A stretch of 42,329 nt of DNA from Mycobacteriales bacterium. GTDB lineage: Bacteria; Actinomycetota; Actinomycetes; Mycobacteriales; SCTD01. Positions within the stretch are counted from its first letter, which is position 1. Each line of letters starts with the position of its first letter. Made by a program: the position numbers and the translations under genes. Under the pieces are notes generated by a model that saw only the letters and a list, made by a program, of their open reading frames with translations, was not told where the DNA came from and ran no database searches. Positions 13,269 through 30,140 of the stretch are shown here, piece after piece. The stretch spans positions 1 to 42,329 of the forward strand of contig JBBDWV010000050.1 in NCBI GenBank assembly GCA_040902655.1, in the 5' to 3' direction.

Positions 13269-13475
13269 CCCCTCTCGTTGCATGGACCCGGCCGCGTGCA
13301 GGGACCGAAACTGCCGCGGGGCATGTGTCCGGTCGGAACTGTGTGCAGGAGAGGTCAACAATCCCAGAAAGTTGACCTCTCCTGCAACCAGCGCAGCAGG
13401 ACAGGTGTCGCCGGGCGGCCGCTGTCGGCCCAGTCCGCGCCGAGTCAGCAGGCTGGGGGCCGGCGTTCGGCCCTA
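13241..13475. other. Intergenic region between FUSC gene and zinc-motif gene
   Basis: Besides the gene remnant at its left edge and the 16-bp-arm inverted repeat at 13344-13386, I see no gene in this 235-bp convergent gap. Confidence 0.5.
13344..13386. repeat. Perfect inverted repeat (16-bp arms, 11-nt loop)
   Basis: Arms 13344-13359 and 13371-13386 are exact reverse complements (TGCAGGAGAGGTCAAC and its complement) around an 11-nt loop. It sits between convergent genes, so it may terminate both. There is no T-run, however, and the arms contain an AGGAGAGG core unlike the GC-only hairpins elsewhere here, so a dispersed intergenic repeat is possible. Confidence 0.7.
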
Positions 13476-14063: not shown

Positions 14064-14267
14064 CTACTGCGGAACGACGTTCTCCGCCTGCGGGCCCTTG
14101 GGGCCCTGCGTGATGTCGAACTCGACGCGCTGGTTCTCGTCGAGGGACTTGTAGCCGTCCGTGGCGATCGCGGAGAAGTGCACGAAGACGTCGGCGCCGC
14201 CGCCGTCCTGAGCGATGAAGCCGAAGCCCTTCTCGGCGTTGAACCACTTCACAGAACCCTGAGCCAT
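14064..14267 (-). CDS. cspA: Cold-shock protein CspA family
   Basis: The 67-residue single-domain OB-fold protein carries RNP1 (KGFGFIA) and RNP2 (VFVHF), and begins [17 protein letters not shown]. It binds single-stranded RNA/DNA and acts as an RNA chaperone. The ATG at 14267 has an AAGGAGA Shine-Dalgarno 7 nt upstream (14275-14281); an earlier in-frame ATG would add residues without homology. The predicted leader is about 140 nt and contains two hairpins, one followed by a T-run, so expression may be controlled by leader structure. Confidence 0.95.
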
Positions 14268-14296
14268 GTTGCTGTCTCCTTCAAAGACCATGGGGC

Positions 14297-14311
14297 CGCG
14301 CACTGTGCGCG
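14297..14311 (-). promoter_or_regulatory. Small hairpin in cspA leader near the ribosome site
   Basis: CGCGCA / TGCGCG with a CAG loop forms a 6-bp stem about 16 nt upstream of the cspA Shine-Dalgarno. It could stabilise or expose the ribosome-binding region; this is inference from base pairing alone. Confidence 0.4.
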
Positions 14312-14340
14312 ATCCCGGAGTTGAGCTGTCGGAGACGCGT

Positions 14341-14373
14341 AAAACGCCCGCGACCTACACGTCCGCGGGCGTT
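14341..14373 (-). promoter_or_regulatory. Terminator-like hairpin with T-run in cspA leader (candidate attenuator)
   Basis: Arms 14343-14352 and 14364-14373 are perfect 10-bp complements (AACGCCCGCG type) with an 11-nt loop. On the minus strand the stem runs directly into four T residues. It lies between the putative cspA promoter (14414-14419) and the cspA start, so it would sit in the transcript leader. Confidence 0.5.
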
Positions 14374-14413
14374 GATGAACACGAGCGAAGAGGTGCAACT
14401 GCAACCGGGCCAC

Positions 14414-14419
14414 AGTCTA
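14414..14419 (-). promoter_or_regulatory. -10 box (TAGACT, extended TGTG) for cspA
   Basis: The minus strand reads TGTG immediately before TAGACT, an extended -10. It implies a transcript start near 14406 and a leader of about 140 nt before cspA. No good -35 hexamer is visible. Confidence 0.45.
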
Positions 14420-14520: not shown

Positions 14521-14583
14521 TGATCAACGCCGGGCTTGCGCCTGTCTGTGAGGGCGAAAGATGAGGAATTCCGGCGTTGATCA
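14521..14583. repeat. 13-bp-arm inverted repeat upstream of helicase gene
   Basis: TGATCAACGCCGG (14521-14533) and its exact reverse complement (14571-14583) flank a 37-nt centre that contains GAATTC and a weak inner stem. The right arm ends 35 bp before the helicase start. It could be an operator, a cruciform, or a short non-autonomous repeat. Confidence 0.65.
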
Positions 14584-14617: not shown

Positions 14618-17500
14618 GTGATGCACGACGCCTGGGACCGCTGCGCCTTCCCGGGCACCTTGCGGCGCTACCAGGCGCAGGCCCTCGACGTAGCCGAGCA
14701 GCTGCGTGCCGCCGGGCGCTCCAGCGCCTGCCTCGTGCTGCCGCCGGGCGCGGGCAAGACCGTGCTGGGTCTCGAGGCGGCCCGCCGGATCGGCCGCCGC
14801 ACGATGGTCCTCACGCCCAACACGGCCGTGCAGGCCCAGTGGCTGGCGCAGTGGAAGGCCTTCGGCGGCGACGGTCCGCACCCCTGCCCGGGCAGCGCCG
14901 AGCCGGCCCTGACAGCTCCGCTGAGCGTGCTCACCTACCAGTCCCTCACTGCCTGGGACCGTACCGCCGACGACGAGGATGTCGAGGACGACTCCTCCGC
15001 CTCGCTGGCCGAGACCCGCCGCGCCGCGCTGCACGGCGAGGAGGGCAGTGACCTGCTCGACCTGCTCCACCCGCGCGGTCGCGACCTGGTACGACGGGCA
15101 GCCACGAGCGGGCCGTGGACGCTGGTGCTGGACGAGGGCCACCACCTGCTGGAGACGTGGGGGGACCTGTGCCGCGCCCTCGTGCGCGCCCTGGGGGAGG
15201 ACACCTGGGTGCTCGGTCTGACCGCCACCCCGCACACCTCGATGACCGCCCGGCAGGGCGAGCTGCACGACGACCTGTTCGGCGACAGAGACTTCGTGGT
15301 GCCGGCGCCGGCGGCGGTGAAGGAGGGCGAGCTGGCGCCCTACCAGGAGCTGGTCTACCTCACCGCACCGACCGCCGAGGAGGAGGCCCGCGTCGTCGGA
15401 GAACGTCAGCGCTTCGCCGACCTACGACTCGAGCTGCTGTCGCTGCGCACCGGCAGCCTGCCGTTCCTGGACTGGCTCTGGCGGCGGCTGCACGACCGCC
15501 GGCTGCAGCGCGACGCGCCGCGGCTGACGTGGTCGGAGCTGGCGGAGGTCGAGCCGGAACTGGCCCGGGCAGGCCTGCGCCTGGTGCAGTCCGGGGTGCT
15601 GGAGCTGCCGGTCGGCGCGCGGCTGCGGGAGGAGCACCGGGTGGCGGCCGACGCCCGGGACTGGGCGGTGCTGCTCGGGGCCTATGCCCGCGAGCACCTG
15701 TCCCGGACGTCCTCCCCGGAGGACGCCCGCCTGCTCGAGTCGATCCGGGCCGTGCTGCCCAGCCTCGGCTTCGTCCTCACCGGGCGCGGACTGCGCACCT
15801 CGACGTCGCTGGTGGACCGCATCTGTGCGCTGTCGGCCGCCAAGGCTGCCGCTGCGCTCCATATCCTGGACGCCGAGTTCCAGGCGCTGGGCGAGGACCT
15901 GCACGCGGTCGTGCTGTGCGACGTCGAGCAGCGCCCCGCCCAGGCGCCGGCGAGCCCGCAGGAGGCCCCTCGCGAGCGGCCGGCCGGCTCCGCCCGGCTG
16001 TCCTTCCTGGCGCTGGCGAACAGCGAGCTCGGACCGGCGTTGCGTCCGGTGCTGGTGACCGGGCGGACCGTCGCGATGCGGCGTGCGGACCTGGCCGGCT
16101 TCCGGGCGTTCGCGCCGGCGGCGCTGGCCGACCGACTGCTGGCCGACCCGCTCGACGGGAACCGCTCCCTCGTCACGCTGAGCGCCGGGGTCGGTTGGAG
16201 CGCGCGGGTCTGGACGGCGCTGATGACCCGATGGCTCGAGGCCGGCGGCACGCACGTCCTGGTCGGCACCCGCGGCCTGCTCGGGGAGGGGTGGGACTGC
16301 CCGGCGCTCGACGTCGTGGTGGACCTGACCACCGCCGCCACGCCGACCGCGGTGACCCAGCTGCGTGGCCGGTCGCTGCGCCTGGACCCGCAGCGGCCGG
16401 ACAAGGTCGCCGACAACTGGACCGTGGTCTGCGTCAGCGACGAGCACCCGCGCGGCGACGCCGACTACCTGCGGGCCGTCCGCAAGCACGAGCACCACTT
16501 CGCTCCCGGCCGCGACGGCGTCGTCGAATCCGGCATCGGGCACTGCGACGACGCCCTCGGGCCCTACGCCCCGCCGGACCCGCAGACCCGCGTCGCCGTC
16601 AACGACCGCGCGCTGGTGCGGACCGCGAATCGGGATGCGGTACGCGTCGCCTGGGCGGTCGGGGCCGGCTACCGCGGCATCGAGGTCGCGACGCTGCGGG
16701 TCCGCGCCCAGCGGTCGCTCGGGCTGCCGGGCGGTGTCGTGCCGGCCCCGCTGCTGGTCGTTCGGCAGACCCTCGGTGCGCCCGCTCCCGCACCGCTGCC
16801 GGACCCGCACCGCCCGACCCGGCTGTGGCCGCTGCCGACCGCGACCGCCGTGCCGGCAGGTGTCTCGGTCGGTCTGGCCGAGGGCCCGGCGACCGGCATG
16901 ACCGCTGCAGCCGGCACCGGCGCCCTGGTGACGGCCGCTGTCGGTGGCCGTCGCTACGCCCGGCAGCTGCGTGCCCTGCAGCCGGTAGCCGACGGCGGAC
17001 AGACCGCGACCCTGCGTCAGTTGGCGCACGCCGTCGGCGATGCCCTGCACGCCATCGGGGCGACCTCGGTGGGTGCCGCGGCGGTGCGCGTGACCGGTGG
17101 GCCCGGCGGTGATGTGGCGTGCGAGCTCGACGCACCGACAGCGGACTCGCTGCTGTTCGCGACCTGCCTGGAGGAGCTGCTGGCGCCGCTCGCCGACCCC
17201 CGCTGGCTGGTCTCCCGGCTGGTGCTGCCGGTGCCCGCCGCGGCCGCCGACCGGCACCGGCTGGCCCGGGCACGCGCGCTTGGCCGCCCGGTCGAGGCGG
17301 CCGTGGCGTGGCACGCCGTGCCGACGGCGTTCGGCCGTTCCAGAAAGGGAATTGCGGCTTTCGAGGCCGCCTGGTGGGCCCATGTCGGTGCCGGCCGGCT
17401 GGTGCTCGCCAAGGACGCGGAGGGGTTCGCGCTGCTGGACCTGCTGCGGGGCGAAGATCCGTTCACGCTGACCAGCCGGTTGCGTACCGTCTGGCGGTAG
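14618..17500 (+). CDS. Large SF2 DEAD/DEAH-type helicase of uncharacterised family
   Basis: The 960-residue protein has motif I PPGAGKT (about 42-48), motif II DEGH (172-175) instead of the usual DEAH/DECH, motif III TAT (202-204), and a second RecA domain with GTRGLLGEGWDCP and QLRGRSLRLDP (motif VI, near 580). An acidic insert (DDEDVEDDSS) lies between motifs Ia and II. About 300 residues after motif VI match no domain I know. The early part resembles restriction-type and XPB-like helicases acting on duplex DNA. No nuclease or methylase gene is adjacent, so it is not obviously part of a restriction system. The start is GTG 14618 or ATG 14621; a GCAGGA sequence precedes them. Confidence 0.82.
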   Translation: MMHDAWDRCAFPGTLRRYQAQALDVAEQLRAAGRSSACLVLPPGAGKTVLGLEAARRIGRRTMVLTPNTAVQAQWLAQWKAFGGDGPHPCPGSAEPALTAPLSVLTYQSLTAWDRTADDEDVEDDSSASLAETRRAALHGEEGSDLLDLLHPRGRDLVRRAATSGPWTLVLDEGHHLLETWGDLCRALVRALGEDTWVLGLTATPHTSMTARQGELHDDLFGDRDFVVPAPAAVKEGELAPYQELVYLTAPTAEEEARVVGERQRFADLRLELLSLRTGSLPFLDWLWRRLHDRRLQRDAPRLTWSELAEVEPELARAGLRLVQSGVLELPVGARLREEHRVAADARDWAVLLGAYAREHLSRTSSPEDARLLESIRAVLPSLGFVLTGRGLRTSTSLVDRICALSAAKAAAALHILDAEFQALGEDLHAVVLCDVEQRPAQAPASPQEAPRERPAGSARLSFLALANSELGPALRPVLVTGRTVAMRRADLAGFRAFAPAALADRLLADPLDGNRSLVTLSAGVGWSARVWTALMTRWLEAGGTHVLVGTRGLLGEGWDCPALDVVVDLTTAATPTAVTQLRGRSLRLDPQRPDKVADNWTVVCVSDEHPRGDADYLRAVRKHEHHFAPGRDGVVESGIGHCDDALGPYAPPDPQTRVAVNDRALVRTANRDAVRVAWAVGAGYRGIEVATLRVRAQRSLGLPGGVVPAPLLVVRQTLGAPAPAPLPDPHRPTRLWPLPTATAVPAGVSVGLAEGPATGMTAAAGTGALVTAAVGGRRYARQLRALQPVADGGQTATLRQLAHAVGDALHAIGATSVGAAAVRVTGGPGGDVACELDAPTADSLLFATCLEELLAPLADPRWLVSRLVLPVPAAAADRHRLARARALGRPVEAAVAWHAVPTAFGRSRKGIAAFEAAWWAHVGAGRLVLAKDAEGFALLDLLRGEDPFTLTSRLRTVWR

Positions 17501-23674: not shown

Positions 23675-23716
23675 CACGAGGAAGGCCCCCGCCGGACGGT
23701 GGGGGCCTTCCTCGTG
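23675..23716. terminator. Strong bidirectional hairpin terminator
   Basis: Arms 23675-23690 and 23701-23716 are perfect 16-bp complements with a 10-nt loop. It sits between convergent genes ending at 23665 and 23727 and would serve both strands. There is no T-tract. Confidence 0.8.
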
Positions 23717-26077: not shown

Positions 26078-26122
26078 CTGACGACGGTCCCGCAGGCCAG
26101 GGGCCTGCGGGACCGTCGTCAG
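26078..26122 (+). terminator. Perfect 21-bp hairpin after tRNA-Ser(CGA)
   Basis: Arms 26078-26098 and 26102-26122 are exact reverse complements with a 3-nt loop, starting 4 bp past the tRNA CCA. This is an unusually long, perfect stem and should end the tRNA transcript. Confidence 0.85.
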
Positions 26123-29834: not shown

Positions 29835-29869
29835 GACGACAGCCGCCCCGGCGGGGAGCGGCTGTCGTC
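29835..29869 (-). terminator. Hairpin after tRNA-Ser(GGA)
   Basis: Arms 29835-29846 and 29858-29869 are perfect 12-bp complements (GACGACAGCCGC type) around an 11-nt GC-rich loop. It lies just past the tRNA 3' end on the minus strand. Confidence 0.75.
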
Positions 29870-30015: not shown

Positions 30016-30022
30016 CGGGACA

Positions 30023-30112
30023 GACCCCTCGTGCGGCGCCCATCCCGCTGAACTCCCCCAGGGCCGGAAGGCAGCAAGGGCAGGCAGGCTCTGGGCGGGT
30101 GTGCGGGGGGTC
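30023..30112 (+). ncRNA. ffs: Signal recognition particle RNA (bacterial small type)
   Basis: The core GGCCGGAAGGCAGCAAGGGC contains the conserved GGAA tetraloop region and the asymmetric loop bound by Ffh. The ends GACCCC and GGGGTC pair to close the rod-like hairpin. The position just before dnaX is the usual actinobacterial arrangement. The RNA targets membrane and secretory proteins with Ffh. Confidence 0.9.
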
Positions 30113-30140
30113 CTGTCGTTGTCGTGGAGGGAGTCTCAGC

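Follow-up and report, generated by a model that had tools for sequence, protein, structure and literature searches.

A conserved terminator-like hairpin in the leader of an actinomycete cold-shock gene

The csp locus and its leader

The window analysed here is a stretch of 42,329 nucleotides from a Mycobacteriales bacterium. It carries a cold-shock protein (csp) gene on the minus strand, preceded by a leader with a conserved box, here called the +1 box, and two hairpins, P2 and P3. The features are listed in table 1. The +1 box probably corresponds to the first bases of the transcript, as judged from its spacing to the −10 element. The helicase-like gene upstream of csp is divergent, so there is no upstream minus-strand transcript obviously needing an end at P2.

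Table 1. Features of the csp locus and other elements of the window.
Feature	Position	Strand	Sequence or basis
GC-rich hairpin 3' of the csp stop codon	14022..14047	minus	by eye; tail TTCGTGCG, 3 T of 8
Cold-shock protein (csp) gene, 67 aa, ATG at 14267	14064..14267	minus	Pfam CSD, E 1.2e-31
Shine–Dalgarno (SD)-like AAGGAG	14276..14281	minus	sequence
Second hairpin (P3), 6 pairs, loop CAG	14297..14311	minus	sequence; upstream of the ribosome site
T tract and following stretch TTTTACGCGTCTCC	14331..14344	minus	4 T of 8 in the window
First hairpin (P2), terminator-like, 10 perfect pairs, 11-nt loop	14343..14373	minus	sequence, covariation, chance estimate
+1 box GGTTGCAGTTGCACCT, conserved	14391..14406	minus	alignments of leaders; element-family consensus approximately GGTTGCAGTTGCAGTTCC
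Extended −10 element	14414..14419	minus	TGTG before TAGACT, read from the sequence
Inverted repeat, 63 bp, TGATCAACGCCGG ... CCGGCGTTGATCA	14521-14583		between the csp promoter and the helicase-like gene
Helicase-like gene	14618-17500		divergent from csp
Bacterial small SRP RNA	30020-30118	plus	Rfam, 53.9 bits

The preliminary description of this DNA had reported an extended −10 box, a perfect 10-bp stem running into four Ts between this box and the csp start, and a second 6-bp stem before the ribosome site. All are present on the minus strand as read, with the qualification that two of the four Ts (14344-14341) lie inside the P2 stem; ACGCG comes next. The arms of P2 are AACGCCCGCG (14373-14364) and CGCGGGCGTT (14352-14343), separated by the loop 14363-14353, and those of P3 are CGCGCA (14311-14306) and TGCGCG (14302-14297). 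The sequence GGAGAC (14279-14274) is able to pair with GTCTCC (14336-14331). The hairpin downstream of the stop codon is likely the 3' terminator of the csp gene; a scripted count at this position chose a longer fold and gave 2 T. Leader-peptide attenuation was rejected on inspection by eye of the window, in which the stretch from the inferred start to P2 contains no ATG.

Perfect stems of at least 10 bp with loops of 3–15 nt number 3.7 (s.d. 2.5, nested stems counted) in the shuffled window, and at this rate the intergenic stretch of 351 nt should contain about 0.03. Long stems are more frequent in the real window than in the shuffles, with 24 nested entries representing 11 distinct stems; its own rate predicts about 0.09 per 351 nt. 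The region 14250-14410 folds with −66.2 kcal/mol, compared with a mean of −58.3 for shuffled sequences (z −1.94; 8 of 200 shuffles are as good). This energy is mildly unusual, and the case for the element is therefore not built on it.

Comparison with known RNA families

Comparison of the whole window with the 4227 families of Rfam 15 at gathering thresholds identified the SRP RNA, and no known riboswitch or leader family. Membership in the cspA thermoregulator family RF01766 was rejected: leader plus coding sequence reach 32.1 bits, where the gathering score is 78. Without the coding sequence, the leader does not match RF01766 at E values up to 10 (there are three weak unrelated matches to other families on the other strand), so that the 32.1 bits come mainly from the coding part. 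Similarly, 11 of 14 loci from relatives, coding part included, match RF01766 at E 1 or below, with up to 65.8 bits, and none attains the gathering score.

A leader element shared by csp genes of actinomycetes

csp genes were gathered from 24 genomes of the window's family and from the best 80 of at least 586 confirmed stretches. Many of their upstream regions share a box, GGTTGCAGTTGCA, near the start and a hairpin about 30 nt downstream. A covariance model, R1, was built without coding sequence from 29 leaders picked by eye, the window included; it has 74 positions and seven pairs. The first alignment contained 32 leaders, from which L020, L058 and L112 were excluded before seeding; L020 and L112 have no R1 match at E 1. 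The window scores 69.6 bits over the full length of the model, being part of its seed.

The R1 scan covered 97 sources, seeds included, of the 121 sequences then collected, and 47 of these match at E 0.004 or below. Sources from Arthrobacter, Cellulomonas, Demequina and Janibacter have no match at E 0.004, and the scores of Blastococcus and Geodermatophilus are marginal. Within the window's family, 16 of 27 csp loci match at this threshold. The 11 that do not match include paralogues, such as L002 from the same genome as the window, and the close homologues L012, L016 and L020. In the window's genome there are three CSD matches and a single leader element.

In a class-wide draw of 296 genomes, R1 finds 124 matches in 109 of them at E 0.01 or below; since the seeds of R1 are csp leaders, some of these matches are their close kin. 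A csp gene lies just downstream on the same strand in 118 of the 124, including the window: all 30 of the loci L121–L150, to which the window belongs, and 88 of the 94 fetched by place. The gap between the end of the model and csp is 42–120 nt in these 88 loci. Four of the exceptions (L220, L226, L236 and L244) have scores of 27–32 bits and appear to be unrelated hairpins or products of chance. The other two, L195 (43.6 bits) and L210 (36.4 bits), resemble good leaders; there is no csp gene in the fetched stretch and another sequence follows. They may be rearranged, may have lost csp, or may have a leader serving another gene.

The leader hairpin is found before csp in Streptomyces, Kitasatospora, Nocardioides and the Frankia relatives Pseudofrankia and Parafrankia. 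A phylum-wide draw of 296 genomes with a second model, R2, gave matches in 11 genomes, all in the window's class; there is no R2 match in the other classes of the phylum in this draw, and the filters of the genome search are strict, so absence from them is not proven. The two weakest R2 matches, L246 and L247, are excluded from the count of csp linkage. The element is rare in the window's order: a DNA search found it in 8 of 200 genomes, seven of them from the window's genus, and in the class-wide draw the genomes of this order with an R1 match are two in addition to the window's own.

Other csp leaders were also seen. A second leader type is apparent in L042, L051, L052, L063 and L067 (several Nocardioides and relatives), which share GGTTCGCTGGACATCAG ... 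GATGTCTTCAG upstream of csp. The loci L043, L045, L046, L053, L066, L068, L092 and L120, from Cellulomonas, Demequina and relatives, have a csp leader motif around CATTGCGGC, and no match to the P2-bearing element.

Covariation of the two hairpins

Covariation was analysed in a pool of 135 csp-linked matches (47 from the 97-source scan and 88 fetched, L121–L150 left out), in which some organisms occur twice. Filtering at less than 88 per cent identity kept 59 leaders, which were aligned with the model. The seven modelled pairs of P2 are formed in 94.1 per cent of cells, and five of the seven have changed on both sides. There are 32 doubly changed cells, compared with 7.9 (s.d. 2.2) in shuffles, and none of 500 shuffles reaches 32. 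The covariation score is 0.316 versus 0.183, and all slid registers are lower. This alignment was fitted to the modelled structure and is hence biased towards pairing, yet arms that visibly differ (GACGCCC/GGGCGTC, GCGTCC/GGACGC and GCGCCTG/CAGGCGC) indicate that the fitting is not the whole reason for the covariation. To judge from these sequence changes, pairing of the first hairpin is under selection across the 59 leaders.

For P3, the leaders were aligned with MAFFT without the model, and five pairs were taken from the consensus fold of the same alignment. The equivalent stem is paired in 82.7 per cent of cells in the 59 leaders, compared with 59.1 per cent in shuffles, and has 62 doubly changed cells, compared with 22 (s.d. 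3.8); neither value is reached in 500 shuffles. The number of P3 pairs with a double change is not above that of shuffles (246 of 500 reach it).

Terminator anatomy

A motif TANNNT ends 0–10 nt upstream of the model start or box in all 59 leaders, with a gap of 6–7 nt in 36 of them; elsewhere in the 60 nt upstream, there is one other occurrence. The element thus appears to lie between the csp gene's own promoter, as recognized by TANNNT, and the start codon. From the start of the box to that of P2, the distance is 26–35 nt.

The 8 nt following the last G–C pair of P2 contain 4.85 T on average in the 59 leaders. Control windows in the same leaders contain 1.08 T when placed at random further down and 1.92 T when anchored on a T. 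At least five T of 8 are present in 38 leaders and at least four in 49. The remaining 10 have three or fewer, and six of these are from the window's family. The richness in T is one-sided: T in the 12 nt after the hairpin exceeds A in the 12 nt before it in 57 of 59 leaders. In profile, some five T are followed by two other bases and then by three T. The 11 leaders of the window's family have a mean of 3.45 T, ranging from 6 (L018) to 1 (L028), and the window, with its four, is below the mean of the 59. A consensus terminator scan requiring at least five T in 8 calls no terminator in the window leader, so that the label 'terminator-like' rests on the relatives.

For comparison, the hairpin of lowest energy was taken from the 110 nt that follow the stop codon of each of these csp genes; the 56 of 59 that could be measured have 2.41 T of 8. 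Their median energy is −35.8 kcal/mol, compared with −18.6 for the leader hairpin; the two sets were picked differently and the comparison is rough. The window also has perfect stems of 12–21 bp with at most 3 T in the 8 adjoining nucleotides at 13344-13386, 23675-23716, 26078-26122 and 29835-29869. It may be that this genome makes use of hairpins whose U tracts are poor, like those 3' of the csp genes.

An RNA antiterminator upstream of P2 was sought by pairing the 5' arm, without gaps, with the 16 nt that precede the stem; the longest such pairing was compared with 200 shuffles for each leader. This candidate was rejected: pairing is significant at p 0.05 or below in two of 59 leaders. The mean longest pairing is 3.98, compared with 3.79 in shuffles; among gapless pairings in these leaders, no antiterminator helix is conserved.

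Predicted folding at different temperatures

The window leader was folded at 10, 15, 20, 30, 37 and 45°C, using an equilibrium model of the window sequence alone, free of kinetics and proteins. The SD sequence is predicted to be fully paired (unpaired 0.0) at all six temperatures, and P2 to be formed throughout. The predicted unpaired fraction of the AUG is 0.65 at 10°C, 0.30 at 37°C and 0.22 at 45°C; this predicted opening of the start codon in the cold would allow some control of translation by temperature. Pairing of the anti-SD kind by the stretch following the hairpin is above that of shuffles (p 0.05 or below) in 6 of 59 leaders, and is not a robust feature of the element family.

The preliminary description had suggested either premature termination or temperature-sensitive folding as the control of csp. 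The conserved promoter, near-fixed spacing, covarying stem and one-sided T tract favour the former. As for the latter, the ribosome site is predicted to stay paired throughout, and the part that could stand is the opening of the AUG in the cold.

A proposed attenuator

Csps are abundant RNA chaperones. We propose, with a probability of about 0.6, that a conserved transcription attenuator lies in the csp leader and that either a protein or the polymerase determines its read-through fraction, a Csp being the leading guess by analogy with published cases. The anatomy of such an attenuator is well supported by the sequences of the element family and less certain for the window copy, in which termination may be weak, lost or factor-assisted.

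Transcription would start at about 14406, at the +1 box. Some 30 nt further on, the polymerase would make P2 and the U-rich tract, where, as the anatomy suggests, a fraction of the complexes would stop and release an RNA of about 65–70 nt. The remaining complexes would read on into P3, the ribosome site and csp. Since no conserved competing fold was found upstream of P2, the likeliest determinant of readthrough is a protein or the polymerase itself. Free Csp might alter termination by binding the U tract or the +1 box, which is single-stranded, thus feeding back on its own synthesis, and cold would change the supply of free Csp. As published Csp effects go both ways, the sign of the effect on this leader is left unpredicted. 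More tentatively, the leader may be an undescribed, widespread autoregulatory element of actinomycetes, by which Csp senses its own free level via the nascent +1 box or U tract and sets readthrough of the terminator, the released short RNA being possibly a decoy or a regulator.

The leader might instead act after transcription, as in E. coli cspA, with the RNA acting in the cold on translation or on the stability of the mRNA, and with P2 as a stability element rather than a terminator. P3, located before the ribosome site, does covary (62 doubly changed cells versus 22, s.d. 3.8), the SD of the window is predicted to be fully paired, with GTCTCC opposite GGAGAC, and the start codon is predicted to be less paired at 10°C (0.65 unpaired) than at 37°C (0.30). 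Moreover, the long 5' UTR of Corynebacterium glutamicum cspA is annotated as an Rfam cspA element in the part of PMC3890552 drawn on here. We nevertheless consider this explanation rather unlikely: it does not account for the one-sided U tract, the predicted SD pairing is constant from 10 to 45°C, and SD pairing with the stretch after the hairpin exceeds shuffles in just 6 of 59 leaders. The attenuator and post-transcriptional roles may coexist.

The other explanations concern the hairpin as a source of RNA, as DNA or as a relic. Conservation of the 5' box, which is unpaired in the consensus structure, gives the anatomy of a seed plus terminator, and two loci (L195 and L210) match well with no csp gene in the fetched stretch, as if the released RNA of about 65–70 nt acted on other messages or sequestered Csp. 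Such a leader-derived small RNA is improbable, given that in 118 of 124 cases the match stands no more than about 120 nt from csp, as expected for a cis element. That the hairpin of the window is decayed or due to chance, and functionless, would fit the weak U tract found there and, within its family, in several relatives as well; it is very improbable in view of the full-length match of 69.6 bits (the window being in the seed), the 10 intact pairs and the 0.03 to 0.09 stems expected. The perfect palindrome at about +34 to +64, close behind the promoter, could plausibly serve a dimeric regulator as its operator. Co-changing arms that keep their pairing, a loop of variable length and a T-rich flank that is one-sided in 57 of 59 leaders make a DNA operator scarcely credible.

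Relation to known systems

Like the E. coli cspA leader (RF01766), the window leader is a long structured leader of a cold-shock gene; it differs in consisting of a box, a terminator-like hairpin and a second hairpin. With attenuators based on protein-modulated intrinsic terminators, it shares a hairpin and U tract between promoter and gene. In the parts of the published reports drawn on here, E. coli CspD attenuates termination at SgrS (PMC9765468), Bacillus subtilis CspB and CspD favour termination at some operons (PMC8307031), and Csps are reviewed as altering terminator readthrough (PMC4347634). These cases, so far as described in those parts, concern terminators other than the csp gene's own leader; in the present leader, Csp binding and its effect on readthrough are putative, and no antiterminator helix was found among gapless pairings.

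The B. subtilis cspB and cspC leaders also have conserved boxes, a likeness in terms of description; in the cspC leader, according to the same portion of PMC8307031, suppressor mutations map in or near a cold-shock box, and a G-65A lacZ fusion approximately doubled expression. Among actinobacteria, C. glutamicum cg0215 (cspA) has a long observed 5' UTR, filed as an RF01766 thermometer at 60.19 bits (PMC3890552, PMC4046766), with no terminator described in the sections concerned; it too is set beside the window by description. The main text of a Streptomyces lividans study listing attenuators and cis elements contains neither 'cold-shock' nor 'csp' (PMC8079986). No description of a csp leader terminator element was found in the open-access literature searched, nor any account there of how actinomycetes set their Csp level.

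A conserved leader terminator would be a directly testable control point of csp in actinomycetes. The leader could also be a natural substrate on which Csps act in termination; as an RNA element, its copy in the window matches none of the families of Rfam 15. The comparison with the 3' hairpins suggests that a GC-rich genome can retain U-tract attenuators even where the U tracts of its ordinary 3' hairpins are poor.

A dispersed inverted repeat

The inverted repeat upstream of the csp promoter (table 1) is one of 14 dispersed copies of 63–64 bp with exact arms in the genome; a control with the reversed pattern gave 0. Among eight other genomes of the genus, one has any, in a single copy. The repeat is REP/MITE-like and perhaps reflects a lineage-specific expansion.
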